Shown: piece after piece, positions 872 to 24,456 of the stretch
How the letters are laid out: each line of letters starts with the position of its first letter
Position numbering within the stretch: position 1 is the stretch's first letter
Virus record (IMG/VR): IMGVR_UViG_3300036398_004368
Location: 1-27,920 of that record
Direction: 5' to 3' (one strand)
DNA: 27,920 bases
Source: a virus
Position numbers and translations under genes: made by a program
The notes under the pieces: model-generated
Told to the model about the DNA's origin: nothing
The model's input: the letters and a program-made list of their open reading frames with translations, nothing else
The model's database searches: none

Positions 872-1042
872 TGAGATGGAACAATGTAACAAAACGCTCT
901 TCTCGAATGGAAAAGCCGTTACATGAGCCGTTCCATCATCGTGGAACGATGGAACACGAGAGCGGCACTTCAGACGCCAAGTGTTGCTGCAGCACCACAT
1001 TAGGACTCTTCTGATCCCTCTCGTGTACGCGCACGATTGTTA

Positions 1043-1080
1043 ATAGTTTCCGACTATCGATTTGTCACTCTCGATAGTTG
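1043..1080 (+). promoter_or_regulatory. Competing hairpin arms in the putative leader of the terminase genes
   Basis: ACTATCGA (1053-1060) pairs perfectly with TCGATAGT (1071-1078) across a 10-base loop, and the stem can extend outward by a G-T and a C-G pair. An upstream arm ATAGT (1043-1047) can pair instead with ACTAT (1053-1057). Arms 1 and 3 therefore compete for arm 2, as in an attenuator or operator. There is no T-tract, so this is not a simple terminator. Confidence 0.4.
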
Positions 1081-1138
1081 TAATGCCTACAAAGCCCGGG
1101 GTTGTGTCGTCCGTGCCATGTGTGGTTTAATTCGCCCT

Positions 1139-1804
1139 ATGGCTTTCAAGGACGACCTCACCACGCTGGACCAGATTGGTGCCGAAACGCTTGCCGAGTA
1201 CGAGCGCCGTGCCGGGATTTCCGCTCAAACGCTGCTGAGCGAAATTCGACGCGACCGCGTGCGGATTCCACCAAGCGAATCCTCGCGTTTGCCTAATTCT
1301 CTCGCGTGTAACGATCCGACCGTGGCGGCTATTGGTGATCTCCGTTTGCACGAGGAGACGCGAGCGTACAAAATGCTGCAGATCCTGGCTGAGTTTCGTG
1401 ATGGTCCGCCCGAGGCGCGATTCTCGATGCGGCACGCGTACACCACAGCGGGCGTACATCGTTCCACGATGATCCAATGGCGAAAGGACCACAAGTTGTT
1501 CGATTCGCTTATGGAAGCGGTCCAGGAGGAGATGATCGACACGCTGCGGGCTGAGGCTTACCGGCGTGCTGTGGTCGGACACGACGAGCCTCTGGTGCAT
1601 CAAGGCCTCAAGACGGGCGACACGGTGAAAAAGTATAGTGATGGGCTGCTGCAGTTCACGCTCATGGGCTACGATGCGAAATTCCGAGCGAAAGACGTTA
1701 ACATGAACGTCAGCGGATCGCTTGATTCCAACGTCAACATCGAGGGACTACGTGACCGGCTTGCACAGCGGCTTGAGCAGAGGGCAAAGGCGGAAAGCCA
1801 GTAA
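1139..1804 (+). CDS. terS: Terminase small subunit (DNA recognition)
   Basis: Predicted small terminase, which recognises the packaging site on phage DNA and recruits the large subunit. A helix-turn-helix-like segment (FSMRHAYTTAGVHRSTMIQW) is followed by an acidic/amphipathic helix (LFDSLMEAVQEEMIDTLRAEAYRRAV). Then comes a GHDEPLVHQG...KKYSDGLLQF motif that is common in phage small terminases, leading to a DAKFR sequence that often ends the oligomerisation domain. The open frame extends up to a TTG at 1037, but that would translate the leader hairpin. ATG 1139 (221 aa) is preferred, and ATG 1118 is possible. It overlaps the start of the large terminase gene, the usual terS-terL arrangement, which strengthens the call. 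Confidence 0.75.
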   Translation: MAFKDDLTTLDQIGAETLAEYERRAGISAQTLLSEIRRDRVRIPPSESSRLPNSLACNDPTVAAIGDLRLHEETRAYKMLQILAEFRDGPPEARFSMRHAYTTAGVHRSTMIQWRKDHKLFDSLMEAVQEEMIDTLRAEAYRRAVVGHDEPLVHQGLKTGDTVKKYSDGLLQFTLMGYDAKFRAKDVNMNVSGSLDSNVNIEGLRDRLAQRLEQRAKAESQ

Positions 1805-3185
1805 AGCTCGAAATCTCGTCGATCCGTCAAATCTGCGGGAGTTCATCGCGGAATTGTCGAACGAGGAGGCGATCGAGCTTTTCTACGATTGGCAGACCTG
1901 GGCACGCCCGAACCAGTTCGTACCACCCGGTGACATGTGGACGATCTGGCTAATCCTCGCGGGTCGCGGCTGGGGCAAAACGCGCTGCGGTGCTGAGTTC
2001 GTCCGGTTTCACGTGGAACGAGGCTTGGCGTCGCGCATCGCGCTAATCGCCGAGGACGCGGGTGACGCCCGGGACGTCATGATCGAGGGCGAGTCGGGCA
2101 TCTTGGCCATCTCGCACCCCAAGTGCAAGCCGGTGTTTGTCCCATCGAAACGCCGCATCGAGTGGCCCAATGGCGCGATCGCCACTATCTATTCGGACAA
2201 CGACCCCGAGACCCTGCGCGGACCCCAGCACGATTTGGCCTGGGTCGACGAGCTTGCGAAATTCCGCAACGTTGAGGACATGTGGTCGAACCTTATGTTC
2301 GGCCTGCGCCTGGGGCAAAGGCCCAGGGTTTGCATTACGACTACGCCCAAGCCGATCCCCATCGTCCGTCGGCTGCTCGACGACGACCGCGTACTGGTTA
2401 CCACTGGCACGACCCACGAGAATTTCAACAACCTCGCGCCGACTTTCCGCGACGAAATCATCTCGCAGTACGAGGGCACGCGGCTGGGTCGCCAGGAGCT
2501 TTACGCTGAGGTGATCGACCCCGAGGACTATGGCATCGTCAAGCGCGATTGGTTCCGACTATGGGATGCCGATCGTCCATTGCCGGAGTTTATTTATATT
2601 TTGCAGTCCTACGACTGCGCCTACACCGAAAAGACTATCAACGATCCGACCGCGTGCAGCGTTTGGGGTATCTTCAAGCCCAGCGACGACCGCCCCATGT
2701 GCGCGATGCTCATCGACTGCTGGGAGGACTTTTTGGCTTACCCGGACTTGCGCCCCAAGGTCATCGACGAGTTCAAATCGGTCTACGGCGAACCCGGCAA
2801 GAAGACGGATTTGGTGCTGGTCGAGGACAAGGCTTCGGGCATCAGCATCTTGCAGGATTTGCAGCGGGCTGGGGTGCCGTGCCGCGCCTACAACCCAGGC
2901 AAGGCCGACAAGGTACAGCGACTGCATTTGGTGGCCAACATCATCATGCATGGCCGCGTTTACATCCCCGAGTCCACCGTGCACCCGGGCGAGCCTCGCG
3001 ATTGGGCCGAGCCGCTGGTAAGCCAGATTTGCTCGTTTCCCGAGGCCGAGCGCGATGACCTGACCGATACGACCACGCAAGCGCTGCGGCTGCTGCGCGA
3101 CATGGGTTTCCTCAATTTCGACCCTGTACCGGAGGAAGAGTACGACGAGGACAGGGGCAAGCGGGCAAACCCGTACGCGCAGTAA
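1752..3185 (+). CDS. terL: Terminase large subunit (ATPase and nuclease)
   Basis: Motor that pumps DNA into the procapsid through the portal and cuts the concatemer. Counting from GTG 1752 (477 aa), the Walker A motif LAGRGWGKT is at residues 69-77 and the Walker B LAWVDE is at about 162-167, with the catalytic Glu following the Asp. The C-terminal RNase H-like nuclease shows acidic residues in SYDCAY (D288), LVEDKASG (E358/D359) and DDLTD (435-439). The start is uncertain: no ATG precedes the ATPase domain. TTG 1722, GTG 1752 (preceded by GAGGGA four bases upstream), TTG 1761 and TTG 1770 are all in frame, and all overlap terS. A parS-like 14-mer lies inside the gene at 2006-2019, coding for FHVE. 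Confidence 0.95.
   Translation: MTGLHSGLSRGQRRKASKARNLVDPSNLREFIAELSNEEAIELFYDWQTWARPNQFVPPGDMWTIWLILAGRGWGKTRCGAEFVRFHVERGLASRIALIAEDAGDARDVMIEGESGILAISHPKCKPVFVPSKRRIEWPNGAIATIYSDNDPETLRGPQHDLAWVDELAKFRNVEDMWSNLMFGLRLGQRPRVCITTTPKPIPIVRRLLDDDRVLVTTGTTHENFNNLAPTFRDEIISQYEGTRLGRQELYAEVIDPEDYGIVKRDWFRLWDADRPLPEFIYILQSYDCAYTEKTINDPTACSVWGIFKPSDDRPMCAMLIDCWEDFLAYPDLRPKVIDEFKSVYGEPGKKTDLVLVEDKASGISILQDLQRAGVPCRAYNPGKADKVQRLHLVANIIMHGRVYIPESTVHPGEPRDWAEPLVSQICSFPEAERDDLTDTTTQALRLLRDMGFLNFDPVPEEEYDEDRGKRANPYAQ
2006..2019 (+). promoter_or_regulatory. parS-like site GTTTCACGTGGAAC (in terL)
   Basis: The 14-mer GTTTCACGTGGAAC is the reverse complement of GTTCCACGTGAAAC, a well-known natural variant of the bacterial centromere core parS recognised by chromosomal ParB proteins. 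It lies in the terminase ATPase region, covering the codons for FHVE. A second, fully palindromic copy lies 1.37 kb downstream. The sequence match is exact. Binding is inferred. Confidence 0.5.
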
Positions 3186-3197
3186 GGAATTACGACT

Positions 3198-4934
3198 ATG
3201 GCCGGTGCACTTGAAGACCTCGCAAAAACGCTGGACCTGCAGCCCGCTGATATACTGTCGGCATTTACTGGTCTTCGCGCAGCGGTACCGATTTACATGG
3301 GGCTGGGTGCCACCGGGCTCAATGCAGGCGAGGACGAGCAATTGCGCCGCATTTATGGCCCGCTGCCTCCGACGCCCGTTTCACGTGAAACGCCCGAGAT
3401 GGCACAGCGGCGCATGGTCGAGGAGTTCGAGCAGCGTTTCCCCACACCCGAGCTTCGTCGTGCGGTGATCGAGCAGATGCGGGCCAATCGGCGCGAAGGC
3501 AGGTTCGACCCCAGCACTGCTACGCGGCGTGCGGATTTTGCACCCCATGCGCAGCCCGAGTACAAGGGTCCGGTGGCGACGCCATCGATCGGGAAGCGGA
3601 AATTCCAGGCCGGTGGCAAGGTGGCTAAATCCGCGATGCAGAAAGCGCGAGATGTCGCAGCCGCTGAGTTGTGGCATGGCGGCAATTACCGCAGAGGCGA
3701 GACGATCAATCGACCGCTGTATATGACGCCGATTCGCGAGATGGCAGAGTCCTATGTCGATGTAAAGGGAGTGCCGGATGCTACATTGCAGCAGCTCAAG
3801 CCTCAGGTATCGCGACCTGCGCCTGAGCGTTTGGTGCGGGCGGCTTCGCGCCGATATGTGCCCGACAATGAGAGATTAGGCTATACACCAGCATCAGCGT
3901 TCGACGAGAATCTGCATGATCCGGAGCAGATTGCGGAGATGATTCGCGAATTGCAGCGGCGAGGATACGACAGCGCGGTAGCCCGTGATGTCGGAATGCG
4001 CCAGGGCATGTTTTTTGGCGCACCCGTGGGTGACGCGCTTGTGGTGTTTCCTGGCAATAAGGCTTATCAGGCCGGTGGTCGCGTCAAGAAGACCGCGCAG
4101 CAAATGGCGGACGAAATGCTCGTGCGGGGCACCAAGACCGCGCAAAGAGAACCGGTGAACCTGTCGCGCCGTGGCTTTTTCGGTTTGCCCGAGTCCAAAT
4201 CGATGCCGCTGGCCAAGATCGACGACACGACACTGGACAAGCTCGAAAAGAAATACGCGAGGGAGGGTCAAGCCCCGGCGCTTACCGAGCGGACCACGAC
4301 GGTATCGCCCGATGCAGGCAAGACACAATCGACTTTGCGGTCAATCGTCGAAACGCCCATGTCGCGTCGCACACTGCTCCAGGCCGCAGGGTCGCAAGCT
4401 GTGCAGAGTATGCTGCCCGCAGGCGCATTGCCAGTGCCTAGCGTCAGCAATTTGGTCAAGCCTGTGGTGCAGGCTGCTACCGCCGCACCTTCGCCGCTAA
4501 GCATGATGGGAGCGATAGCGAAAGCTGTGGAGGCAGGACTCAGTGAGCGCCAAGCTGTGGCGGCTGTGCGAAGTATGTTCCCGAAGGCCGATCGGTACGA
4601 AATCGAAGACTCATTTCAAATGCTGTCCGACCCGTATGTGAATTCGACGATCGAACCCGGTGATCTGCAAAGACCTATTGAGACGATGCGCAACCTAATA
4701 GCGCCAAATTTACCCAGCGATGCGAGTCCCTTTGCATTGCGTTCTGCCATGCGAGAGGTCAAGCGCGAAGCACCGTTAACTTATAGTGGTGCGAAAGGAT
4801 TTGCCAAAGACGTTTGGGATGACGAGATCGAGACGTTGTTTGAACGTGGGTATATTAAATCCGACGATGAACTAAGACGGCTGCGCATGGGTGACGAGTC
4901 GATTTACGACTTGATGTACGATCGCGGTCGATAA
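3198..4934 (+). CDS. Virion-associated protein with ADP-ribosyltransferase-like domain
   Basis: A 578-residue protein between terminase and portal. Residues 157-288 resemble phage polyvalent-protein ADP-ribosyltransferase domains: ELWHGG (candidate NAD-contacting His), RGETINRPLYMTP (the strand with the conserved aromatic), REMAESYVD, then a late ELQRRGYDSAVARD...DALVVFPGNK strand pair. Two near-identical QAGG(K/R)V linkers flank this domain (137-142 and 291-296), each followed by a basic KxAxQKARD/KKTAQQMAD helix. Two twin-arginine-like strings are internal, SRRGFF (323-328) and SRRTLL (389-394), the second followed by an Ala-rich stretch. The rest is unrecognised. If real, the domain would transfer ADP-ribose from NAD to a host or virion target, and proteins at this locus are often injected. 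The third catalytic residue is not clear, so activity is uncertain. Confidence 0.6.
   Translation: MAGALEDLAKTLDLQPADILSAFTGLRAAVPIYMGLGATGLNAGEDEQLRRIYGPLPPTPVSRETPEMAQRRMVEEFEQRFPTPELRRAVIEQMRANRREGRFDPSTATRRADFAPHAQPEYKGPVATPSIGKRKFQAGGKVAKSAMQKARDVAAAELWHGGNYRRGETINRPLYMTPIREMAESYVDVKGVPDATLQQLKPQVSRPAPERLVRAASRRYVPDNERLGYTPASAFDENLHDPEQIAEMIRELQRRGYDSAVARDVGMRQGMFFGAPVGDALVVFPGNKAYQAGGRVKKTAQQMADEMLVRGTKTAQREPVNLSRRGFFGLPESKSMPLAKIDDTTLDKLEKKYAREGQAPALTERTTTVSPDAGKTQSTLRSIVETPMSRRTLLQAAGSQAVQSMLPAGALPVPSVSNLVKPVVQAATAAPSPLSMMGAIAKAVEAGLSERQAVAAVRSMFPKADRYEIEDSFQMLSDPYVNSTIEPGDLQRPIETMRNLIAPNLPSDASPFALRSAMREVKREAPLTYSGAKGFAKDVWDDEIETLFERGYIKSDDELRRLRMGDESIYDLMYDRGR
3378..3391 (+). promoter_or_regulatory. 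parS-like site GTTTCACGTGAAAC (perfect palindrome)
   Basis: GTTTCACGTGAAAC is identical to the universal parS core bound by ParB/Spo0J. The palindrome extends by one flanking C/G pair to 16 bases (3377-3392), where the usual flank is T/A. It sits in coding sequence for residues V61-T65 (VSRET) of the ADP-ribosyltransferase-like gene. No ParB gene is visible in this window. Whether the host ParB binds is inference. Confidence 0.55.
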
Positions 4935-4945
4935 CGAAAGTGATT

Positions 4946-7459
4946 ATGGCCACTGAATTCCCACAACCGCAAACCGAACTACCCGAGGGACCTGAGGATC
5001 AGGAGGGCATTCTGTTCGACCTGGACGACGAATTCGCGGAGGTCGAGGAGCAGCCCGATGGCTCGGCTATTGTGCGAATGGACGAGTTCAAGGGTCCGAT
5101 GGAGGACGACGATTTTTATTCGAATCTAGCCGAGAAGATCGACGGCTACAAGCTCGGGAAAATCTCGCTCAAGTATCTGGAACTAATCGAAAAGGACCGG
5201 GAGGCGCGTAAAGATCGAGACAAGAAGTACGAAGAGGGTCTCAAGCGCACGGGTCTGGGCAACGACGCGCCCGGTGGTGCTAATTTCCAGGGTGCATCGA
5301 AGGTGGTGCATCCGATCATGGCCGAGGCCTGCATTGATTTCGAGTCGCGGGCGATCAAAGAGCTATTTCCACCAGATGGTCCAGTGCGCACGAAAGTGCT
5401 GGGCAAGCAGGAGGAAGAGGCGACGCTTCGGGCCGAACGCAAGCGCGACTGGATGAATTGGCAGTTGACCGAGCAGATCGAGGAGTTCCGCGACGAGCAG
5501 GAGCAATTGCTTACCCAACTGCCGCTCGGAGGGTCGCAGTACCTCAAGCTCTGGTACGACGAGCGCAAGAAACGGCCATGCGCCGAGTTCATCCCGGTGG
5601 ACAACATACTGCTGCCATTCGCAGCGACGTCGTTTTATACCGCGCAGCGCGCCACTGAACAGCAGGACATCACTGCCGAGGAATTCGAGGATCGCGTAGG
5701 GTCGGGCTTGTATATCGACGTCGATATCGGGATCGCGGCGATGGAACCCGAGCCGACTGCATCGCAGAAGGCGAACAACAAGATCGAAGGTAAAACGTTC
5801 GAAGAGAATCAAGACGGGTTGCGCCGAGTGTACCATAGCTATGTGAACATGGCTCTGGAGGACGACGCCCGTACCGATGGCGAGGTCGCGCCCTACATTT
5901 TGATGATCGACGAATTGACCGGTGAGGTCGTCGGGCTGTATCGCAATTGGGAAGAGGGTGACGAAAGCCGTGCGAAACTCGAATGGGTGGTCGAATTCAA
6001 GTTCATCCCATGGCGTGGAGCCTACGCGATTGGTCTGCCGCACCTCATCGGCGGTCTTTCGGCGGCTCTCACCGGCTCCCTGCGTGCTCTTCTGGATTCG
6101 GCGCATATCAACAATGCTGCCACAATGCTCAAGCTCAAGGGTGCGAAGATTTCGGGGCAATCCCAGCAGGTTGAAGTGACTCAGGTGGCCGAAATCGAGG
6201 GTGCTCCAGGGGTCGACGACGTGCGCAAGATCGCTATGCCGATGCCCTTTAATCCGCCATCGCCGGTACTTTTCCAGCTTCTGGGGTGGTTGACGAGTGC
6301 AGCCAAGGGTGTCGTGACCACGAGCGAGGAGAAAATCGCGGACGTGACGTCCAATTCCCCCGTCGGGACCACTCAAGCGCTCATCGAGCAGGGTGCAGCG
6401 GTATTTTCCGCTATTCATGCGCGACTTCATGCATCCCAATCGCGTGTTCTGAAGATCCTTCAGCGCATCAACCGCTGGTACTTGGACGACATGTCCAAGG
6501 GCGACATCGTGCAGGAACTGCCGATCAAGCGCGAGGATTTCAATCGAAGCACCGACGTGATCCCGGTGAGCGACCCTCACATATTCTCGGAGACTCAGCG
6601 TTTTGCGCAGAATCAGGCTGTGCTCGCTCTGATGGAGAAATTCCCGGATCAATTCGACCGCAGGGCTGTGCTGCAGCGGGTTATCAAGCAGATGAAGGTG
6701 CAAAACCCCACTGAATTGATGCCAGCGCTGGCGGAACCGGAGGAGCGAAACGCAGCGGACGAGAATGCGGCGATGGCGATTGGTCGCGCAGCATTTGCAT
6801 ACCCGCACCAGAACCAACTGGCGCATATTCAGGCGCATTTGGACTTCGCGCTGAACCCGATGTTGGGCTCTTTGCCTATCATCGCGCCGTCTTTCATGCC
6901 GATGTTTCTGGAGCATTTCAAGCAGCATCTGATTCTCTGGTATCTGGGCCACATGAACGGCTATGTCGAGCAGTCGTTGGGCAAGAAGATCGAGGATTAC
7001 GACATCCCAGGGATCACCGGAGATATCGACAAGCTATTCGCGGTGGCATCGCAGCACACTGATATCGACACGAAGGAAGCGTTCGAGAAGGTCGCACCAG
7101 CACTTCAAAAGCTCATCGAGGTCGCTCGGAAGTTCAAGCCCGAGCCCAAAATGGATGGAGCCGATTCAGTTATCCTCAAGACGTCGATGGCGGAGACCGA
7201 GAGGCGTGCGGCCAAAGACAAGATGGACGCGGAACACGCCAAAGCGAAGCTTCAGGCCGACATGCTCGAAGAGAATCGCAAAATGCAGATTCAGATCGCC
7301 ACGAATGCGGCTGATAATCTGACTGACGAACGAATCAAGACTGCCGAACTGTCGAATGACGCTTCGCTCTTGAGAAATGAGCAGCAAAAAACTGCTATTG
7401 CCGCGCTGGAAAGCGCTCAACGAACCTTTGGAGAAGGAAATGGCTACATCGAACAGTGA
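4946..7459 (+). CDS. Portal protein
   Basis: Dodecameric portal, the channel at the unique capsid vertex through which terminase packages DNA and to which adaptors attach. The 837-residue length, acidic N-terminus and long alpha-helical C-terminus fit the large portals of short-tailed phages. A recognisable core includes ANFQGASKVVHPIMAEAC, FPPDGPVR, VDNILLPFAATSFYTAQR, SPVGTTQALIEQGAAVFSAI and HLILWYLGHMNGYVEQSLG. The last 120 residues are charged, Ala/Lys/Glu-rich helix (ERRAAKDKMDAEHAKAKLQ), likely the barrel that projects into the head. ATG 4946 is preferred over the in-frame GTG 4940. It lies 12 bases after the upstream stop. The 3' end overlaps the next small gene by 20 bases. Confidence 0.9.
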   Translation: MATEFPQPQTELPEGPEDQEGILFDLDDEFAEVEEQPDGSAIVRMDEFKGPMEDDDFYSNLAEKIDGYKLGKISLKYLELIEKDREARKDRDKKYEEGLKRTGLGNDAPGGANFQGASKVVHPIMAEACIDFESRAIKELFPPDGPVRTKVLGKQEEEATLRAERKRDWMNWQLTEQIEEFRDEQEQLLTQLPLGGSQYLKLWYDERKKRPCAEFIPVDNILLPFAATSFYTAQRATEQQDITAEEFEDRVGSGLYIDVDIGIAAMEPEPTASQKANNKIEGKTFEENQDGLRRVYHSYVNMALEDDARTDGEVAPYILMIDELTGEVVGLYRNWEEGDESRAKLEWVVEFKFIPWRGAYAIGLPHLIGGLSAALTGSLRALLDSAHINNAATMLKLKGAKISGQSQQVEVTQVAEIEGAPGVDDVRKIAMPMPFNPPSPVLFQLLGWLTSAAKGVVTTSEEKIADVTSNSPVGTTQALIEQGAAVFSAIHARLHASQSRVLKILQRINRWYLDDMSKGDIVQELPIKREDFNRSTDVIPVSDPHIFSETQRFAQNQAVLALMEKFPDQFDRRAVLQRVIKQMKVQNPTELMPALAEPEERNAADENAAMAIGRAAFAYPHQNQLAHIQAHLDFALNPMLGSLPIIAPSFMPMFLEHFKQHLILWYLGHMNGYVEQSLGKKIEDYDIPGITGDIDKLFAVASQHTDIDTKEAFEKVAPALQKLIEVARKFKPEPKMDGADSVILKTSMAETERRAAKDKMDAEHAKAKLQADMLEENRKMQIQIATNAADNLTDERIKTAELSNDASLLRNEQQKTAIAALESAQRTFGEGNGYIEQ

Positions 7460-7607: not shown

Positions 7608-7792
7608 TGCGATATGTCAGCGACTTCATCGGTGCTATCGAAGATCGCAAAGCGGCAATCGCGCAATCGTTAGTTAATGGTCACGCCGTTAACTTCGAAA
7701 CCTACCAGCGTTTGGTAGGACAGCACCAAGGGCTTGAAGAAGCTCTGGTAATCCTTAACAATCTTCTAAAGGAAGACGAAATTGACAATTGA
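7607..7792 (+). CDS. Small conserved-type helical phage protein, unknown function
   Basis: A 61-residue protein whose ATG overlaps the preceding stop (TAATG). It has the look of a two-helix protein: MRYVSDFIGAIEDRKAAIAQSLV, a short turn (NGHAVNFETY), then a second amphipathic helix (QRLVGQHQGLEEALVILNNLLKEDEID). Similar tiny proteins recur between portal and scaffold genes in short-tailed phages. No function is assigned. Its 3' end overlaps the start of the GroES-like gene by 11 bases, so the three genes are probably translated as a coupled set. Confidence 0.65.
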   Translation: MRYVSDFIGAIEDRKAAIAQSLVNGHAVNFETYQRLVGQHQGLEEALVILNNLLKEDEIDN

Positions 7793-8219
7793 ACTTATGC
7801 CGGATGCTTCGAATGAAGCCGCGCTGCGGGAAGCATTTCCCGAGGTGAATCCCGGTGCTCTGCCAGTAGGTGGACGTATTCTCGTGCAATGGCGTGCCGT
7901 TCGCGATAAAGTCACCGCATCGGGAATTGTGTTGCCTGAGGAAACGAAGGAAACCGAGAAGTGGAACACGCAGGTCGCGAAGGTGATCTCGATTGGTCCA
8001 CTCGCTTTCAAAAAGCGTGACACGATGGAGCCATGGCCGGAAGGCAACTGGATCGCCGTCGGAGATTATGTGCGGATGCCCAAATGGGGCGGCGACCGCT
8101 GGGAAGTACCTTTCGAGATCGACGGTGCCAAAGGCAACGCGCTTTTCAGCATTTTTAATGACCACGAAGTGATTGCAAAAGTCACTGGTGATCCCTTGAA
8201 AGTGAAGGCATTCCTATGA
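7782..8219 (+). CDS. GroES-like co-chaperonin (Cpn10 family)
   Basis: The 145 residues show the Cpn10 fold signature. An opening strand GGRILVQWRAV is followed by a mobile-loop-like segment VTASGIVLPEETKETEKWNTQVAKVISIGP, where GIVLP corresponds to the GroEL-contacting tripeptide region. Then come GNWIAVGDYVRMPKWGGDRWEVP, a GALFS-type strand (GNALFSIFNDHEVIAKV) and a C-terminus. Like T4 gp31, it would cap the host GroEL and let it fold the phage capsid protein. It is longer than bacterial GroES (about 95 aa) owing to an N-terminal tail and an insertion near the roof region. The start is taken as TTG 7782, with AAAGGAAG well placed upstream; ATG 7797 is the alternative. Its position between portal and scaffold fits a role in head assembly. 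Confidence 0.85.
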   Translation: MTIELMPDASNEAALREAFPEVNPGALPVGGRILVQWRAVRDKVTASGIVLPEETKETEKWNTQVAKVISIGPLAFKKRDTMEPWPEGNWIAVGDYVRMPKWGGDRWEVPFEIDGAKGNALFSIFNDHEVIAKVTGDPLKVKAFL

Positions 8220-11809: not shown

Positions 11810-12571
11810 ATGGGCCAATTTAAACCGATGGTGAAGATGCAGACCACTGAACCCAGTGTTGAGCTTAAACTCAAGACTGGTGGGTCCGCAACCCACAAGC
11901 GTGCGCAGAAGGAGGGAGCCCCTGTTCGTAAAATGGATGGTGGGGTTATGGGTGCTCTGGCTGGTCGCAGCCCGATTACGCCGCCTATGGGCAACCCCGC
12001 TGCTGCTCGTGCTATGGCCGCGAAGAAGATGATGCGTCGGCCCCCTGCGATGCCTCCTGCGCCTCCGATGCAGGCTATGCCTCCCATGAAAAAGGGTGGA
12101 GAGGTGGAAACTCCGGCTATGCATAAAGCCGAGATGGGTGCCATCAAGAAGGTGGACAAGAAACTCACGAAGCACGCCGCTTCCCCCGCGTCCAAGGCTC
12201 ACAAAGGCCTTAAGACCGGTGGTGTGATGAAGTCCACTAAGCCTGCCGAGTACAAGACCGGTGGTGTGGTGAATGGTCAAGCCGGGTTCAAGTCTGGTGG
12301 TATCATCAAGACTATGAATCGCAAAACCACGAAAGTGGTTGAAGCTCGACCCGACACCAATTCAGCTCCTACCGGCGATGTGAAACTTGGTAACGCTGGC
12401 GGCTACAAGAAGGGTGGTGCTGCAAAAAAGCATTTTGCTACGGGGGGCGCAGTTAACAACTCCGGCCATGCCGTAGCAATGCCAAAGAAAGCTCCGTCTA
12501 AACCTGTGGCGATTAGCCAGTTATCCGGCACGTTCAAACGTGGCGGCAGAGTTAAAAACGAAGAGTGTTGA
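11810..12571 (+). CDS. Basic low-complexity protein with repeated x-K-x-GG-x motif
   Basis: A 253-residue, Lys/Met/Pro/Gly-rich protein with a strong AAGGAGG site. A short motif, aromatic or Leu, then K/A/x, then GG plus a small or hydrophobic residue, recurs at least eight times: LKTGGSA, MKKGGEV, LKTGGVM, YKTGGVV, FKSGGII, YKKGGAA, FATGGAV, FKRGGRV. Between copies are Met/Pro/Ala-rich tracts (PPAMPPAPPMQAMPPM). No catalytic domain is visible. It is probably disordered, with spaced short linear motifs that may dock onto a repeated partner such as the capsid or DNA. Related QAGG(K/R)V motifs occur in the ADP-ribosyltransferase-like protein, and MKSGGVA occurs in the gene at 12898. The gene is followed by a terminator. 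Confidence 0.7.
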   Translation: MGQFKPMVKMQTTEPSVELKLKTGGSATHKRAQKEGAPVRKMDGGVMGALAGRSPITPPMGNPAAARAMAAKKMMRRPPAMPPAPPMQAMPPMKKGGEVETPAMHKAEMGAIKKVDKKLTKHAASPASKAHKGLKTGGVMKSTKPAEYKTGGVVNGQAGFKSGGIIKTMNRKTTKVVEARPDTNSAPTGDVKLGNAGGYKKGGAAKKHFATGGAVNNSGHAVAMPKKAPSKPVAISQLSGTFKRGGRVKNEEC

Positions 12572-13309: not shown

Positions 13310-14383
13310 ATGGCTTATTCTGGGACAGTAGGTACCACCGTTATTCCCGTGCAGACCCTGATTGATCACGGGGCACGTCGATGCGGGAAGATGGCTGAAG
13401 AGTTGACGTCAGAACAGCTTTTGAGCGCGAAGGAATCCCTGTTTTTTCTCCTCAGCAACCTCATCAATATTGGTATTCAGTACTGGGCGATTGACAAAAA
13501 GGTGTTCGGGCTGCAAGCCGACAATTACGTATACAAGCTGCCCTTAGGATCGAACGACGTTCTCCAGGCCTTGTATCGTAGGATGAATCGCCCTACTCCG
13601 AACAGCACTGGCGGTTATGCCAGTAGTGCGGGCGGCATCGTGGCTAATGCTTTCGATTCGAATACCGACACGATTTGCACTCAGACAAGCACGAATGGAA
13701 ACATCGCCGTAGATTACGGCACTAACAATCCGGTTTATGTAGGTTCGATTGGTGTCTTACCTGGAGTATCGGGTAATTTCAATGTCGTTTTTGAGTACTC
13801 AGTTGATGGGATCACCTGGAGCACCTTACTCGCGCCTGGAGCCACAGCTTGGGTGAATAATGAGTGGCTTTGGTACGACATTGAGGCTGGCCAGACGGTG
13901 CAGTTTTACCGAATTCGCGAGACCGGTGGCAATACGTTATCGTTACGCGAACTTTATTTCGGTAACAATTCTACTGAAATCACGATGGCTCGTCTTAACC
14001 GAGACGATTACACGAATCTGCCCAATAAGAATTTCACAGCGAACCAACCATTTCAGTATTGGTTCAATAGGACTATTCCTCAGCCCGAGATTTATTTGTG
14101 GCCGGTGCCGTCTGACCCGTTTGTTCAAATGACTGTCTGGTATTCGCGCCAGATCATGGATGTCGGCGATTTGTACGGAGAATTGGAGATCCCCCAACGT
14201 TGGTTCCTGGCTATACAATGCATGCTGGCCCATCAGATGTCTCAGGAACTTCCCAGTGTGGATTTGGCCCGGATCAAGTATCTTGAAGAGCAAGCCGAAA
14301 AATACCTTGTTCTTGCCGAGGTCGAGGAAAGAGACAAATCGCCGATTTATTTTGCACCCAATATTAGCGTGTACACGAGGTAA
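13310..14383 (+). CDS. Head-tail adaptor (gp4/gp11-like) with inserted discoidin-like domain
   Basis: A 357-residue protein. Its N-terminal helices (TLIDHGARRCGKMAEELTSEQLLSAKESLFFLLSNLINIG) and C-terminal part (ITMARLNRDDYTNLPNKNF, QPFQYWFNRTIPQPEIYLWPVP, MTVWYSRQIMD, FLAIQCMLAHQMSQELP) resemble the ring-forming adaptor/gatekeeper proteins that sit under the portal in short-tailed phages. Residues about 98-222 look like an inserted F5/8-type-C (discoidin) beta-sandwich: ANAFDSNTDTICTQ, GNIAVDYG, YVGSIGVLPG, VVFEYSVDGITWSTL, QFYRIRETGG, LSLRELYFGN. Such domains usually bind glycans. The insertion suggests a loop exposed outside the connector. It starts behind a GAGGA site seven bases after the previous stop. 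Confidence 0.7.
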   Translation: MAYSGTVGTTVIPVQTLIDHGARRCGKMAEELTSEQLLSAKESLFFLLSNLINIGIQYWAIDKKVFGLQADNYVYKLPLGSNDVLQALYRRMNRPTPNSTGGYASSAGGIVANAFDSNTDTICTQTSTNGNIAVDYGTNNPVYVGSIGVLPGVSGNFNVVFEYSVDGITWSTLLAPGATAWVNNEWLWYDIEAGQTVQFYRIRETGGNTLSLRELYFGNNSTEITMARLNRDDYTNLPNKNFTANQPFQYWFNRTIPQPEIYLWPVPSDPFVQMTVWYSRQIMDVGDLYGELEIPQRWFLAIQCMLAHQMSQELPSVDLARIKYLEEQAEKYLVLAEVEERDKSPIYFAPNISVYTR

Positions 14384-14732: not shown

Positions 14733-16886
14733 ATGCCGAACGTAACAATCACCCAACTACCTGCGGCTGGCCCGATTACCGGAACAGAGTCGGTACCAAT
14801 CGTTCAGAACGGTCAAACGGTTCGTGCTACGACTTCTGCTATCGCTAGCGCTCCGAATCAGCAACAGACTTTCCTCACTCTGGTACAAGAAACGACGTTA
14901 CCTAACAGTCGATATCTGTCTACAAGTACCGGTCTTGGCTTAGTTGATGGTGGCCCGCAAGCGTTTTATAGAATCACGCTTAATGGCGCGGCGGGCTCGT
15001 TGGAGCTTGCCGGCACCGGTATTATTGCTAAGACATCTGCCAGCGCGGTTACAAGCCGCAGTATTGCTGTCACCGGCGCAGGTTTGGCCATCTCCAATGG
15101 CGACGGCGTTGCAGGCAATCCCACGATCTCACTTGCTGGGCTGGCTGCAGCCATGGCGAACGTTGGTGGAACTGGGCTGCTGGCTTTTCAAAACGGGTCA
15201 ACTGCGGGCGGCGTGCTGATTGCTGGAACTGCAGATCAGATCTCTGTGGCCAACGGTAATGGCGCTGGTGGCAACCCAACGATCAGTTTCGCGCTCAATC
15301 CAATTTTGCCGGGAACCGAGGCGGTTACACTGCCGAAAGGGACCACAGCAGAACGTCCTGCTGGTAGTGATGGACAAATTCGTTTCAATACAGATACGAA
15401 TCAATATGAAGGCTACGTCAGCGGGCATTGGTCTAATGCCCTTGGTGCTTCCGGATTTTCCGGATTTTCTGGGTATTCAGGTTTTTCTGGATTAGGTCTT
15501 TCCGGGTACAGTGGTGAATCGGGGTTTTCTGGAATTTCGGGCTTTTCGGGCGAGTCTGGCTTCTCTGGAATTTCCGGCTTTTCTGGTATCTCGGGCTTTT
15601 CGGGCACATCTGGGTTTTCGGGAGTAAGTGGGTTTTCCGGGATTTCCGGCTTTTCTGGTGTCTCAGGTTTCAGTGGCGATTCTGGTTTTTCAGGTGTTTC
15701 CGGATTTTCCGGGTCTGGAATATCCGGATTTTCTGGAATATCTGGATTTTCTGGAATATCTGGATTTTCTGGAACGTCGGGTTTTTCCGGCATATCTGGA
15801 TTCTCAGGAATTTCTGGATTTAGCGGTATTTCCGGATTCTCCGGGGTGTCTGGATTTTCTGGAACGTCAGGTTTTTCCGGGAGTGGTATCTCCGGTTTTT
15901 CTGGAATCTCTGGGTTTAGCGGTATTTCCGGGTTTTCCGGAATCAGTGGTTTTTCTGGCATTTCCGGAATCAGTGGTTTTTCTGGCATTTCCGGTATTTC
16001 TGGGTTCAGCGGGTTTTCCGGAGAATCTGGATTCTCCGGTTCAGGGATAAGTGGCTTCTCTGGATCAGGAATAAGTGGTTTTTCAGGCACTTCTGGCTTT
16101 TCTGGTATTTCAGGCTTTTCAGGCACTTCAGGCTTTTCAGGCACTTCTGGCTTTTCTGGTATTTCAGGCTTTTCTGGCTTTTCTGGTATTTCAGGCTTTT
16201 CTGGTATTTCAGGCTTTTCTGGGATCTCTGGTTTTTCTGGATTTTCTGGATTTTCCGGATCGGGCATCAGCGGCTTTTCAGGCTTTTCAGGCAGATCTGG
16301 GTTCTCAGGCAGTGGCATCAGCGGCTTTTCAGGCTTTTCAGGCTTTTCAGGCTTTTCAGGCAGATCCGGGTTCTCAGGCAGTGGCATCAGCGGGTTCTCA
16401 GGGCGATCCGGCTTCTCTGGATCAGGGATAAGCGGATTTTCTGGCATTTCCGGTTTCTCGGGCCAGTCTGGATTTTCTGGATCAGGCGTCAGTGGTTTTT
16501 CTGGCTCCGGTCTTTCTGGGTTTTCAGGTACATCTGGTTTTTCTGGGTTTAGCGGCACTTCTGGATGGAGCGGATTTTCTGGCATTTCCGGTTTCTCGGG
16601 CCAGTCTGGATTTTCTGGATCAGGCGTCAGTGGTTTTTCTGGCTCCGGTCTTTCTGGGTTTTCAGGCACATCTGGTTTTTCTGGGTTTAGCGGCACTTCT
16701 GGATGGAGCGGATTTTCTGGAGCACCTCCCACAACAGTCACTGTTTCCACCAGCACAGCAACCACCGCGTATTTGACTTTTGTTACAGGCACAACAGGCA
16801 GTCAATCTGTGCTTGTCAATAGCGGCTTGACTTACAATGGAACGACAAACGCCATAACGGGCGGCGTTGCAGGAGGCGCGTTCTAA
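14733..16886 (+). CDS. Tail fibre/appendage with long proline-free collagen-like G-x-S repeat
   Basis: A 717-residue fibre. The N-terminal 240 residues hold a typical attachment head (ITQLPAAGPITGTESVPIVQNGQTVRATTS), beta segments with NGDGVAGNPTIS and NGNGAGGNPTIS repeats, and a trimer-entry motif (AERPAGSDGQIRFNTDTNQYEGYVSGHW) common before fibre shafts. Residues about 240-663 are almost only Gly-Phe-Ser and Gly-Ile/Thr/Val/Glu-Ser triplets, broken by short GSG steps. No proline is present, which is unusual for collagen-like sequence. The C-terminus is a short beta tip ending GGVAGGAF. The serines in every third position are candidate glycosylation sites. The stop overlaps the ATG of the glycosyltransferase gene. 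Confidence 0.85.
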   Translation: MPNVTITQLPAAGPITGTESVPIVQNGQTVRATTSAIASAPNQQQTFLTLVQETTLPNSRYLSTSTGLGLVDGGPQAFYRITLNGAAGSLELAGTGIIAKTSASAVTSRSIAVTGAGLAISNGDGVAGNPTISLAGLAAAMANVGGTGLLAFQNGSTAGGVLIAGTADQISVANGNGAGGNPTISFALNPILPGTEAVTLPKGTTAERPAGSDGQIRFNTDTNQYEGYVSGHWSNALGASGFSGFSGYSGFSGLGLSGYSGESGFSGISGFSGESGFSGISGFSGISGFSGTSGFSGVSGFSGISGFSGVSGFSGDSGFSGVSGFSGSGISGFSGISGFSGISGFSGTSGFSGISGFSGISGFSGISGFSGVSGFSGTSGFSGSGISGFSGISGFSGISGFSGISGFSGISGISGFSGISGISGFSGFSGESGFSGSGISGFSGSGISGFSGTSGFSGISGFSGTSGFSGTSGFSGISGFSGFSGISGFSGISGFSGISGFSGFSGFSGSGISGFSGFSGRSGFSGSGISGFSGFSGFSGFSGRSGFSGSGISGFSGRSGFSGSGISGFSGISGFSGQSGFSGSGVSGFSGSGLSGFSGTSGFSGFSGTSGWSGFSGISGFSGQSGFSGSGVSGFSGSGLSGFSGTSGFSGFSGTSGWSGFSGAPPTTVTVSTSTATTAYLTFVTGTTGSQSVLVNSGLTYNGTTNAITGGVAGGAF
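15450..16722 (+). repeat. Coding repeat tract for G-F-S/G-x-S triplets
   Basis: About 1.27 kb of imperfect 9- and 18-base units of the form GGN TTT TCN GGN ATT TCN. Third-base variation between units shows purifying selection for the protein pattern rather than recent simple slippage, except at the 3' end, where long near-identical blocks occur. The tract also leaves the opposite strand open (a Pro-Glu-Lys pseudo-frame), which is a by-product. Confidence 0.9.
16431..16706 (+). repeat. 138-bp tandem duplication inside the fibre repeat
   Basis: Block 16431-16568 is repeated at 16569-16706, each unit starting AGCGGATTTTCTGGCATTTC, with a partial third start at 16707. I see one mismatch (AGGTACATC versus AGGCACATC). 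The period of 138 bases is 46 codons, so the frame is kept. This points to a recent in-frame expansion of shaft length. Confidence 0.85.
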
Positions 16887-23904: not shown

Positions 23905-24419
23905 AACTGAGCAAGGCCGGTGCTGCGATGATGCACAAGTACGAGGGGTGTAAGAACCGCCCGTACCTGTGTCCGGCGCACATCTGGACAATTGGATATG
24001 GCCATGTGCTGTACCAAGAGCAGATCCGCCTGCCGATGTTCCGGCCAGAAGGAAAGACCAAAGCCGACATCCCCATGATTCGCAGTGAGTATCCACTCAA
24101 ACCGGAGGACAACCGTGTCTGGACAAAGCAAGAAATTGATGATCTCTTCGCGCAGGATGTCGCAGATTTTGAACGCGGTGTTCTTCGACTTGTTCCCCCT
24201 GCTGTTGGGCATCAAGGCCGCTTTGACGCTTTGGTCTCTTTTTCCTTTAACGTAGGGTTAGGCAACCTCCAGCGTTCTACCGTCCGCATCAAGGCAAATC
24301 GCATGGAATTTGAAGCCGCAGCAGATGCCTTATTGCTTTGGAACAAGGGCGGGGGTAAAGTGCTCGCAGGGCTGGATCGTCGGCGCAAGGAAGAAAAGGT
24401 ATTTTTCCTTTCGAACTAG
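23901..24419 (+). CDS. Endolysin, GH24 phage lysozyme
   Basis: A 172-residue lysozyme starting at GTG 23901 in a GTGA overlap with the holin stop. The catalytic motif is clear: E15 (KYEG), eight residues, C24 (YLCP), five residues, T30 (IWTIGYGH), so the E-8-D/C-5-T triad of T4-type lysozymes is present with Cys in place of Asp, as in P1 Lyz. Downstream QGRFDALVSFSFNVGLGNLQRSTV is the family's conserved second half, and LLWNKGGGKVLAGLDRRRKEEKVFF is the C-terminus. There is no signal peptide or SAR anchor, so the enzyme should depend on the holin for export. The longer frame back to 23670 is a shadow of the holin. Confidence 0.9.
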   Translation: MKLSKAGAAMMHKYEGCKNRPYLCPAHIWTIGYGHVLYQEQIRLPMFRPEGKTKADIPMIRSEYPLKPEDNRVWTKQEIDDLFAQDVADFERGVLRLVPPAVGHQGRFDALVSFSFNVGLGNLQRSTVRIKANRMEFEAAADALLLWNKGGGKVLAGLDRRRKEEKVFFLSN

Positions 24420-24456
24420 TTGTTCGAGATGTTTTCACGTGGTAAAATATTTTACC
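24420..24456 (+). promoter_or_regulatory. Candidate promoter with overlapping palindromic operator
   Basis: The 56-base spacer between endolysin and adaptor genes holds TTGTTC (24420-24425, three of six to -35) and, after 17 bases, TAAAAT (24443-24448, five of six to -10). The -10 lies within a perfect 16-base palindrome GGTAAAATATTTTACC (24441-24456). A CACGTG hexamer (24436-24441) abuts it, and TCGAAC/GTTCGA arms (24411-24416, 24422-24427) lie upstream. A repressor bound at the palindrome would block the promoter. A low-GC hairpin without T-run makes a terminator unlikely. Confidence 0.45.

Follow-up and report, generated by a model that had tools for sequence, protein, structure and literature searches.

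Two exact parS-type sites in a phage packaging block as candidate targets of host ParB

Results

Two parS-type sites lie in adjacent genes of the packaging block

We analyse a stretch of viral DNA of 27,920 nucleotides (the window) in which a packaging block carries two exact matches to the 14-bp core GTTYCACGTGRAAC of chromosomal-type parS (Table 1). The first lies in terL, where the Walker A motif GRGWGKT directly precedes it and it is read through the codons CGG TTT CAC GTG GAA CGA. The second falls in the segment PVSRETPEM of the following gene, whose product has no PHROG or Pfam family match and no tblastn match among 50,697 phage records. The original prediction, made from the DNA letters, placed two such 14-mers in coding sequence and noted CACGTG just once more, at 24436. 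We confirm all of this: the hexamer occurs three times altogether, the third copy having three mismatches to the 14-mer, and a search of the whole window finds no sites with one or two mismatches besides the two exact ones.

Table 1. Features of the window that bear on the parS-type sites.
Feature	Position	Strand	Remarks
Small terminase subunit	1037-1804	+	PHROG 4044, E 5.3e-21, matched residues 112-220 of the ORF; true start probably later within the ORF
Large terminase subunit (TerL)	1722-3185	+	PHROG 38, E 2.9e-20; PHROG 2, E 1.1e-18; carries site 1
parS-type site 1, GTTTCACGTGGAAC	2006-2019	.	exact 14-mer inside terL
Gene of unknown function	3198-4934	+	ORF without family match; carries site 2
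parS-type site 2, GTTTCACGTGAAAC	3378-3391	.	exact, perfect palindrome inside the gene after terL
Portal protein, next in packaging block	4940-7459	+	PHROG 1216, E 3.5e-16
Homologue of the class C site gene	13310-14383	+	no site in the window; codons GGG ATC ACC TGG AGC

When the window sites are set against canonical chromosomal parS, TGTTTCACGTGAAACA, all 14 core positions are common to both, and the T/C (A/G) variation at position 4/11 seen between them is natural in chromosomal sites (consensus as given in the accessible text of PMC5450999 and PMC7022226). In the same portion of PMC5450999, ParB of B. cenocepacia tolerates the T/C change at this position. The window sites differ from chromosomal parS in being phage-borne, in lying within genes, in having no detected parAB and in missing the outer T..A of the 16-mer, with flanks of G..G at site 1 and C..G at site 2. 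According to the available part of PMC5450999, SPR imaging shows the greatest permissiveness at distal parS positions, a change at position 2/13 in one arm leaves the SPR score relatively high, and single-arm variants at position 3 keep SPR binding yet give no incompatibility in vivo. Position 2/13 of the 14-mer is also where every one-mismatch variant of the window's group departs from the core.

Exact sites exceed the expectation from composition and codon usage

Under a first-order Markov model 7e-4 exact sites are expected in the window, the same order as the 4e-4 estimated originally. Shuffling synonymous codons 200 times while preserving the proteins gives 0.02 expected sites in the window's ORFs, where two are seen, and the ORFs of 22 related records hold 18 exact sites compared to 0.3 expected by codon shuffles. 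Ranked against all 8192 palindromes of the same form in these 22 records, parS comes first (16 of the 22 records, four contexts), and the 179 further palindromes that share its composition give 0 exact matches there. At the one-mismatch level parS is second of 180 palindromes rather than first. At three mismatches the window holds 5 sites against 3.8 expected; there is no surplus at this level, and thus the excess is confined to exact sites.

The third bases of the R, H, V and E codons of site 1 are invariant across 15 distinct sequences, where the background rate of an invariant third base is 22% of 330 codons for invariant residues. Taken together, the codon shuffles, these third bases and the retention of the site despite changes in neighbouring residues point to selection at the level of DNA beyond that on the protein.

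The site recurs at several places among relatives

Across relatives of the window phage the site is found in three reading frames and four contexts, lying in terL itself, at about 1.9 kb on its upstream side or at 11-13 kb on its downstream side. Site 1 is retained in five close relatives (L003-L007), and in 18/18 records of a distant clade, whose TerL is about 78% identical, the terL site is exact at the same place, its position 4 being T or C. Both clades that have the terL site spell it CGG/AGG TTY CAC GTG GAA C.., with a following residue that changes (R or Q) and variable third bases in the flanks; clades without it mostly have Y-H-V-E-N or Y-H-A-E-N in different codons. The sites are thus kept within two terL clades when conservation is weighed against synonymous variation, and for the most part the site persists where synonymous, and even amino-acid, changes occur. 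In the TerL tree, built on the 68 of 91 sequences kept after identical rows were removed, clade A groups with the class B clade and A2 stands apart; an AU test on 34 of the 91 TerL sequences does not reject a union of the terL-site clades A and A2, and hence a single origin of the site in terL (p 0.10).

Site 2 is exact in L003-L005 only and is missing in L006 and L007, so that the exact form is confined to near-identical relatives; at the equivalent place the distant clade has the one-mismatch GCTCCACGTGAAAC. A further site, class C, lies 11-13 kb from terL in the gene for a 357-aa protein and has 15 members, two of them with one mismatch.

The original prediction held that absence or free variation in close relatives would tell against function, and in part this is what we observe, with the terL site absent from 66/80 terL relatives, L008 among them. 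Against it, 11 of the 47 records searched whole (out of the 80 terL loci) have an exact site elsewhere than in terL, which argues for replacement rather than free drift. No site at one mismatch or less is present in 22/47 records, several of them short fragments, and 3 of 12 records longer than 54 kb have no site. Among the 16 site-bearing records of the window's group, 14 have a single exact site.

Perfect parS occurs upstream of terL in two other terminase lineages

Two further TerL lineages, about 30% identical to the window TerL over about 220 residues, carry perfect parS in 41/80 and 33/80 terL-selected loci (from queries picked for carrying parS), mostly upstream of terL. At 152/155 sites of these lineages the full 16-mer T..A ends are present. 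In the second lineage 55/57 sites fall in the 600 bp that precede the terL match, with many between -15 and -126; in the third, 68/89 sites lie 600-2000 bp upstream (45 of 80 loci examined) and groups of up to five sites occur. Among the tandem pairs that form one subgroup of the second lineage, 8 distinct rows give conservation of 0.78 at the first site, 0.96 at the second and 0.75-0.94 in neighbouring DNA; sites and flanks are conserved to about the same extent, so that there is no site-specific conservation here. In one member, L637, the first site has decayed.

In the viral collection as a whole, parS is found in at least 120 stretches, of which 17/120 among the matches listed are multi-copy, compared to 80 stretches and none multi-copy for the one control palindrome used. 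With terL seeds taken from phages without the site, 24/120 16-mer loci among the matches listed lie less than 1 kb from terL, compared to 6/80 for the control palindrome (Fisher p 0.016); for all 14-mer loci among the matches listed the count is 18/120, which is not significant (p 0.12). Within the 42 terL-holding 16-mer loci among the matches listed, 24 lie within 1 kb where 18.5 are expected at random, and 13 lie within 150 bp outside terL where 1.7 are expected; one terminase cluster supplies 23 of the 31 terL-near loci among the matches listed. The terL-selected sets, though their queries were chosen for parS, are better evidence of proximity than this seed-based count.

Searches for partition genes and for hosts

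As originally predicted, no ParA or ParB gene is visible: the ParB_N domain (PF02195) is found in 0/30 records, the window included, although many of these, the window too, are fragments, and the ParA domain AAA_31 (PF13614) in 0/18 records, the window included, several being fragments. We find integrase domains in 0/18 records, and Pfam recognises no repressor, rep or partition genes in 20 proteins (19 of relative G039 and 1 of the window). In two sets of viral records selected for parS, most of them fragments, ParB_N is present in 5/27 (3 above the cut-off) and 1/50. Among 27 long records of the two other terminase lineages (18 with a site in the locus), ParB_N gives no match above the cut-off and one weak match below it.

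In the cultured Pelagibacter phage HTVC027P a parS-type site is intergenic, near terS, at 16413-16426; its relative HTVC023P lacks the site. The exact site is missing in 16/18 isolate or reference phages: the first seven isolate or reference relatives have no site at up to two mismatches (0/7), and 11 further phages give two with an exact site and one with a one-mismatch site. Our scan of bacterial genomes finds no TerL relatives. A capsid scan gives 11 loci in bacterial genome bins, four of the best five labelled beta proteobacterium. The parS-type site is present in 0/11 of these loci, and the same 14-mers occur in 7/11 of the bins; phage contigs in bins are weak evidence of host.

Discussion

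The two 14-mers are very probably selected sites for ParB of the host. Host ParB is named as the target because no ParA or ParB is detected on the phage; a ParB of the phage's own, considered as the binder, is rejected on the 0/30 count. Conservation and the presence of the same site in unrelated phages likewise support the core of the original prediction, that these are real parS-type sites addressed by host ParB. Both the binding and what the phage gains from it are what we infer from the sites themselves.

How could a phage without detected ParA or ParB make use of the host's own centromere sequence? Host chromosomal ParB would bind the phage site and close as a CTP clamp, and the clamps would slide over adjacent phage DNA and recruit partners such as ParA or SMC. 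The phage genome, especially the terminase region, would then be treated as an extra host centromere, and phage DNA would be anchored, positioned or organised during infection. We regard this whole statement, selected loading sites for host ParB together with anchoring or organisation of phage DNA, as somewhat favoured. Of the uses proposed originally, organising the packaging end gains weight, since candidate sites near the terminase genes are found in three terminase lineages; the class C sites, at their distance from terL, do not fit it.

An unlikely alternative is that the sites act as a transcription switch, where host ParB at or in terL represses or times packaging and late genes and, for instance, senses ParB release when the host chromosome is degraded. 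The second lineage, with many sites at a possible terL promoter place, speaks for such a switch; the sites of the window and of classes A-C are inside ORFs, class C is far from terL, and the third lineage has most of its sites further upstream. We find it similarly unlikely that the sites serve as a decoy, by which replicated phage DNA titrates host ParB and its partners and upsets segregation or division to the benefit of the phage. One parS can load many sliding ParB clamps, and the third lineage groups its sites, both of which suit a decoy; extra parS also slows growth by incompatibility, as the accessible text of PMC5450999 has it. Yet a single exact site is the rule among site-bearing records of the window's group, and titration alone needs no position beside the terminase.

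It is improbable that the sites serve a plasmid-like carrier state, where host ParABS would partition a non-integrated phage genome to daughter cells. The precedent is SGI1 with IncC (PMC10954446, in its available part), and the lack of integrase domains agrees with it. Against this state stand the 20 Pfam-scanned proteins free of repressor, rep and partition genes, and the bacterial genomes without a TerL relative, where the capsid scan gave loci in bins. Binding of the palindrome by a phage-encoded protein instead of host ParB, at a site of packaging or recombination for instance, is very improbable: frequent nearness to terminase genes and the presence of unassigned genes on the phage speak for it, but the sites match chromosomal parS in sequence, in the positions that tolerate change and, for the other lineages, in the complete 16-mer ends, and unrelated lineages would all require the same private binder. 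That the sites arise by chance, or are dictated by a protein motif, is barely credible, for although ordinary codons could spell any single site and relatives repeat the class C motif G-S-T-W-N in different codons, the codon shuffles and palindrome ranking rule it out, the sites span several frames and contexts, and L398, L414 and L422 have the same class C residues in other codons and no site.

Returning to host ParB as the target, how does the window compare with known systems? P1, N15 and cyanophage Mic1 also have partition sites in their genomes but encode their own ParA/ParB, and mycobacteriophages too are known with phage-encoded ParABS. The parS proposed for Mic1 differs in sequence (PMC7156551, available part). 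The closer likeness is to SGI1, whose parS-like sites have been shown experimentally to hijack the ParABS of the IncC plasmid (accessible text of PMC10954446): both are mobile elements with parS sites that depend, or here would depend, on the ParB of another replicon, and the window likewise has a partition site that belongs to another replicon, with no ParB detected beside it. The difference, from the same source, is that SGI1 is integrative and borrows from a plasmid, whereas here a tailed phage carries the site of a bacterial chromosome. In the accessible part of the open-licence literature we find no report of host-type parS in phages without ParB.

Exact host-type parS in phages, often beside the packaging gene and with no ParB gene detected, suggests borrowing of the host's chromosome-handling machinery. 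ParB-parS ranks with the best conserved systems of DNA handling in bacteria, and its use by phages that do not encode it would reveal a new layer of phage-host interaction. Such use could explain particular cellular positions of phage DNA, and site-bearing phages would supply natural extra-chromosomal parS substrates. The idea is directly testable, because HTVC027P is cultured, has a known host (Pelagibacter HTCC1062) and has the site. We give about even weight to a broader proposal, that theft of the host centromere is recurrent among tailed phages: at least three terminase lineages without detected ParB would carry host-type parS, mostly beside terminase genes, and would load ParB clamps (perhaps SMC) near the start of packaging, including on DNA that probably contains 2-aminoadenine.

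This last point comes from relative G039, which encodes a family A polymerase together with PurZ, MazZ-like and DatZ-like proteins. None of the four is seen in the window fragment; homologues of all four are present in all 12 records longer than 54 kb and in G002, a record with 99% TerL identity to the window. From the PurZ, MazZ-like and DatZ-like genes of these near-complete relatives, as read from their sequences, their DNA probably contains 2-aminoadenine. In this set of predicted enzymes and polymerase the relatives are comparable to Z-genome siphoviruses such as S-2L and phiVC8.

Two exact parS sites in the window

The original prediction placed two parS-type 14-mers in packaging genes of the window, and we find that both are exact matches to this core of the ParB-bound chromosomal centromere site. 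Across the 27,920 bases there is no further match with up to two mismatches, and the number of exact sites predicted for the window is 7e-4 under a Markov model and 0.02 under synonymous-codon shuffling. The parS sequence itself is already well known; its presence in the phage is real, and it is a familiar sequence in an unusual place.

Positions of the sites and genes discussed
Feature	Record	Position	Place or match
Site 1	window	2006-2019	within large terminase gene (terL), directly 3' of Walker A motif
Site 2	window	3378-3391	within gene of unknown function next after terL
Class A site	window, L003-L007, clade A2 (18 distinct records)		same terL place as window
Class B site	L011, L013		~1.9 kb upstream of terL
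Class C site			11-13 kb downstream of terL (counted round record ends where the record is cut between terL and site), in gene for 357-aa protein
GTTTCACGTGAAAC	Pelagibacter phage HTVC027P (MN698241.1, host HTCC1062)	16413-16426	between annotated genes, 0.6 kb from small terminase gene
GTTCCACGTGGAAC	Roseobacter phage CRP-810 (OR671924.1)	24251-24264	within a gene
Six parS sites, three close pairs	L098; G061	5526-5565, 12131-12168; 15314-15367	four L098 sites between ORFs of phage tail region
GroES-like co-chaperonin gene	window	7782-8219	amid head genes (PHROG 3188, E 1.9e-9)
Tail-fibre gene	window	14733-16886	collagen-like tail proteins
Z-genome gene set (PurZ, MazZ-like, DatZ-like, family A polymerase)	G039 (relative)	L234:312-11189	
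SNF2-type helicase gene	G039	L234:1822-3576	
Histone-deacetylase-like gene	G039	L234:11417-12250	

Sites recur at three places among relatives

By terminase search we recovered 80 relative loci from viral contigs (78-100% identity in the large terminase, TerL), of which 14 carry the terL site. Searching whole records for 47 of these relatives, we find a site with at most one mismatch in 25 (24 exact), and the pattern read backwards in 1/47. The sites occupy three places, classes A, B and C. Among the 12 records longer than 54 kb, eight hold an exact site, one a one-mismatch site and three none; none of 22 records examined along their full length combines exact sites of two classes. Clade A2, a class A group distant from the window, has the first site exact in 18/18 distinct records and a second, with one mismatch, at the corresponding position in the following gene in all 18. 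A third, half-perfect site in this clade (ACTTCACGTGAAAC, two mismatches; L282-L296, not L287) lies ~1.2 kb upstream of terL in 14/16 records with enough upstream sequence, so that where it is present three sites stand ~1.4 kb apart. The class C site is exact in 13/15 clade members, carries one mismatch in the other two, and is absent from L363 (a 90% identical relative) and L364 (79%).

Across 22 records (1.02 Mb), we ranked 8192 palindromes built on the pattern NNN[Y or R]NNN. Here parS ranks first, with 18 sites in 16/22 records and four distinct contexts, ahead of a runner-up in six records and two contexts; codon shuffling predicts 0.3 sites vs the 18 observed. Because shared descent makes the 18 sites non-independent, the four contexts give the fairer measure. 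None of the 179 further palindromes with equal composition has an exact match in these records; at one mismatch parS has five sites and comes second among 180, while with two or three mismatches its count is ordinary.

Constraint on DNA rather than protein

Class A sites are spelt CGG/AGG, TTT/TTC, CAC, GTG, GAA, then CGA/CGC/CGT/CAA, and every one of these codon changes preserves the 14-mer: the arginine codon change retains the last G, and an R-to-Q change retains the first C. Conservation set against synonymous variation thus favours the original prediction. Site-less clades mostly encode Y-H-V-E-N or Y-H-A-E-N with other codons. Over 15 distinct sequences, the third base is invariant in 22% of 330 invariant-residue codons and in 4/4 informative site codons. 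In class C, GGT TCC ACG TGG AAC is kept in 13/15 members while neighbouring sequence varies, and more distant relatives (L398, L414, L422) encode the same residues with other codons. The three classes lie in different reading frames, so no common peptide forces the sites. On the sequence evidence as a whole, a parS-identical site is under selection.

Within the window's group, every variant with one mismatch is a single-arm change at 16-mer position 3 (the 16-mer being the core plus outer T..A). Chromosomal parS is common to bacteria, and two sources place its natural variation at 16-mer position 5/12 and the ends (PMC5450999; consensus table, PMC7022226). For single-arm position 3 changes, a relatively high in-vitro binding score and no in-vivo incompatibility are reported (PMC5450999).

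parS in other terminase lineages and cultured phages

In the viral collection, exact GTTTCACGTGAAAC occurs at no fewer than 120 loci; among the matches listed, 71/120 have the full 16-mer and 17/120 are multi-copy. A single control palindrome, matched in composition, occurs at 80 loci, seven with T..A ends and none multi-copy. Two further terminase lineages, 2 and 3, recur among the parS loci (~30% identity to the window TerL across ~220 residues), and we selected 80 loci of each by terminase. Lineage 2 has 57 sites at 41/80 loci (55 with T..A ends) and lineage 3 has 98 at 33/80 (97 with T..A ends), fractions that do not estimate phages at large because both queries were picked for carrying parS; counts for the remaining palindromes of equal composition are zero or close to it. 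In lineage 2, 55/57 sites fall in the 600 bp preceding the terL match, as does a site in 30/62 loci with enough upstream sequence. In the 45 of 80 lineage 3 loci examined, 85/89 sites lie 0-2000 bp upstream of terL, in groups of up to five. Tandem pairs ~24 bp apart occur among L603-L654, at roughly -67 and -43 relative to the terL match, where GTTTC and GTTCC forms exchange order between relatives. Exact sites are present in 2/18 isolate or reference phages checked.

Partner genes, proposed mechanism and possible host

The original prediction saw no ParA or ParB gene in the window, and the same holds more widely: ParB_N is found in 0/30 records, the window included, and ParA AAA_31 in 0/18, as is phage integrase. 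ParB_N also stays below cut-off in 27 long records of lineages 2 and 3 (18 of which carry a site at the retrieved locus), the site-bearing G136 giving a weak match in a 928-residue frame, and is absent from the 18 kb record with six paired sites (L098/G061).

Most likely, host ParB would load at the phage sites as CTP clamps and spread along the DNA, so that the phage genome would serve as an additional host centromere, in many cases close to the terminase genes; binding, spreading and benefit to the phage are what we infer here. SGI1 is described as using copied parS sites to hijack a plasmid's ParABS (PMC10954446). The strongest rival in lineage 2 is regulation of late genes, which suits sites close upstream of terL but fits poorly with the window's group, whose sites lie within ORFs. 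Two further readings, titration and partition in a carrier state, are possible. The consulted portion of a ParB-fold survey covers phage-encoded ParB-like proteins and does not discuss phage parS without ParB (PMC12704722), and our search of open-licence literature found no report of host-type parS recurring in phages without detected ParB, often beside terminase.

Homologues of G039's four Z-genome genes occur in 12/12 records longer than 54 kb and in G002, whose TerL is 99% identical to the window's; an AEP primase is in those 12 records, not in the G002 fragment. The DNA of these relatives therefore probably contains 2-aminoadenine, also as the adenine of these sites. This base carries an extra minor-groove amino group.

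A TerL scan found no relatives in bacterial genomes. Five phage contigs in bacterial genome bins (L264-L268) have a capsid protein 87-98% identical, and the label of four bins, beta proteobacterium, is a weak hint at the host.
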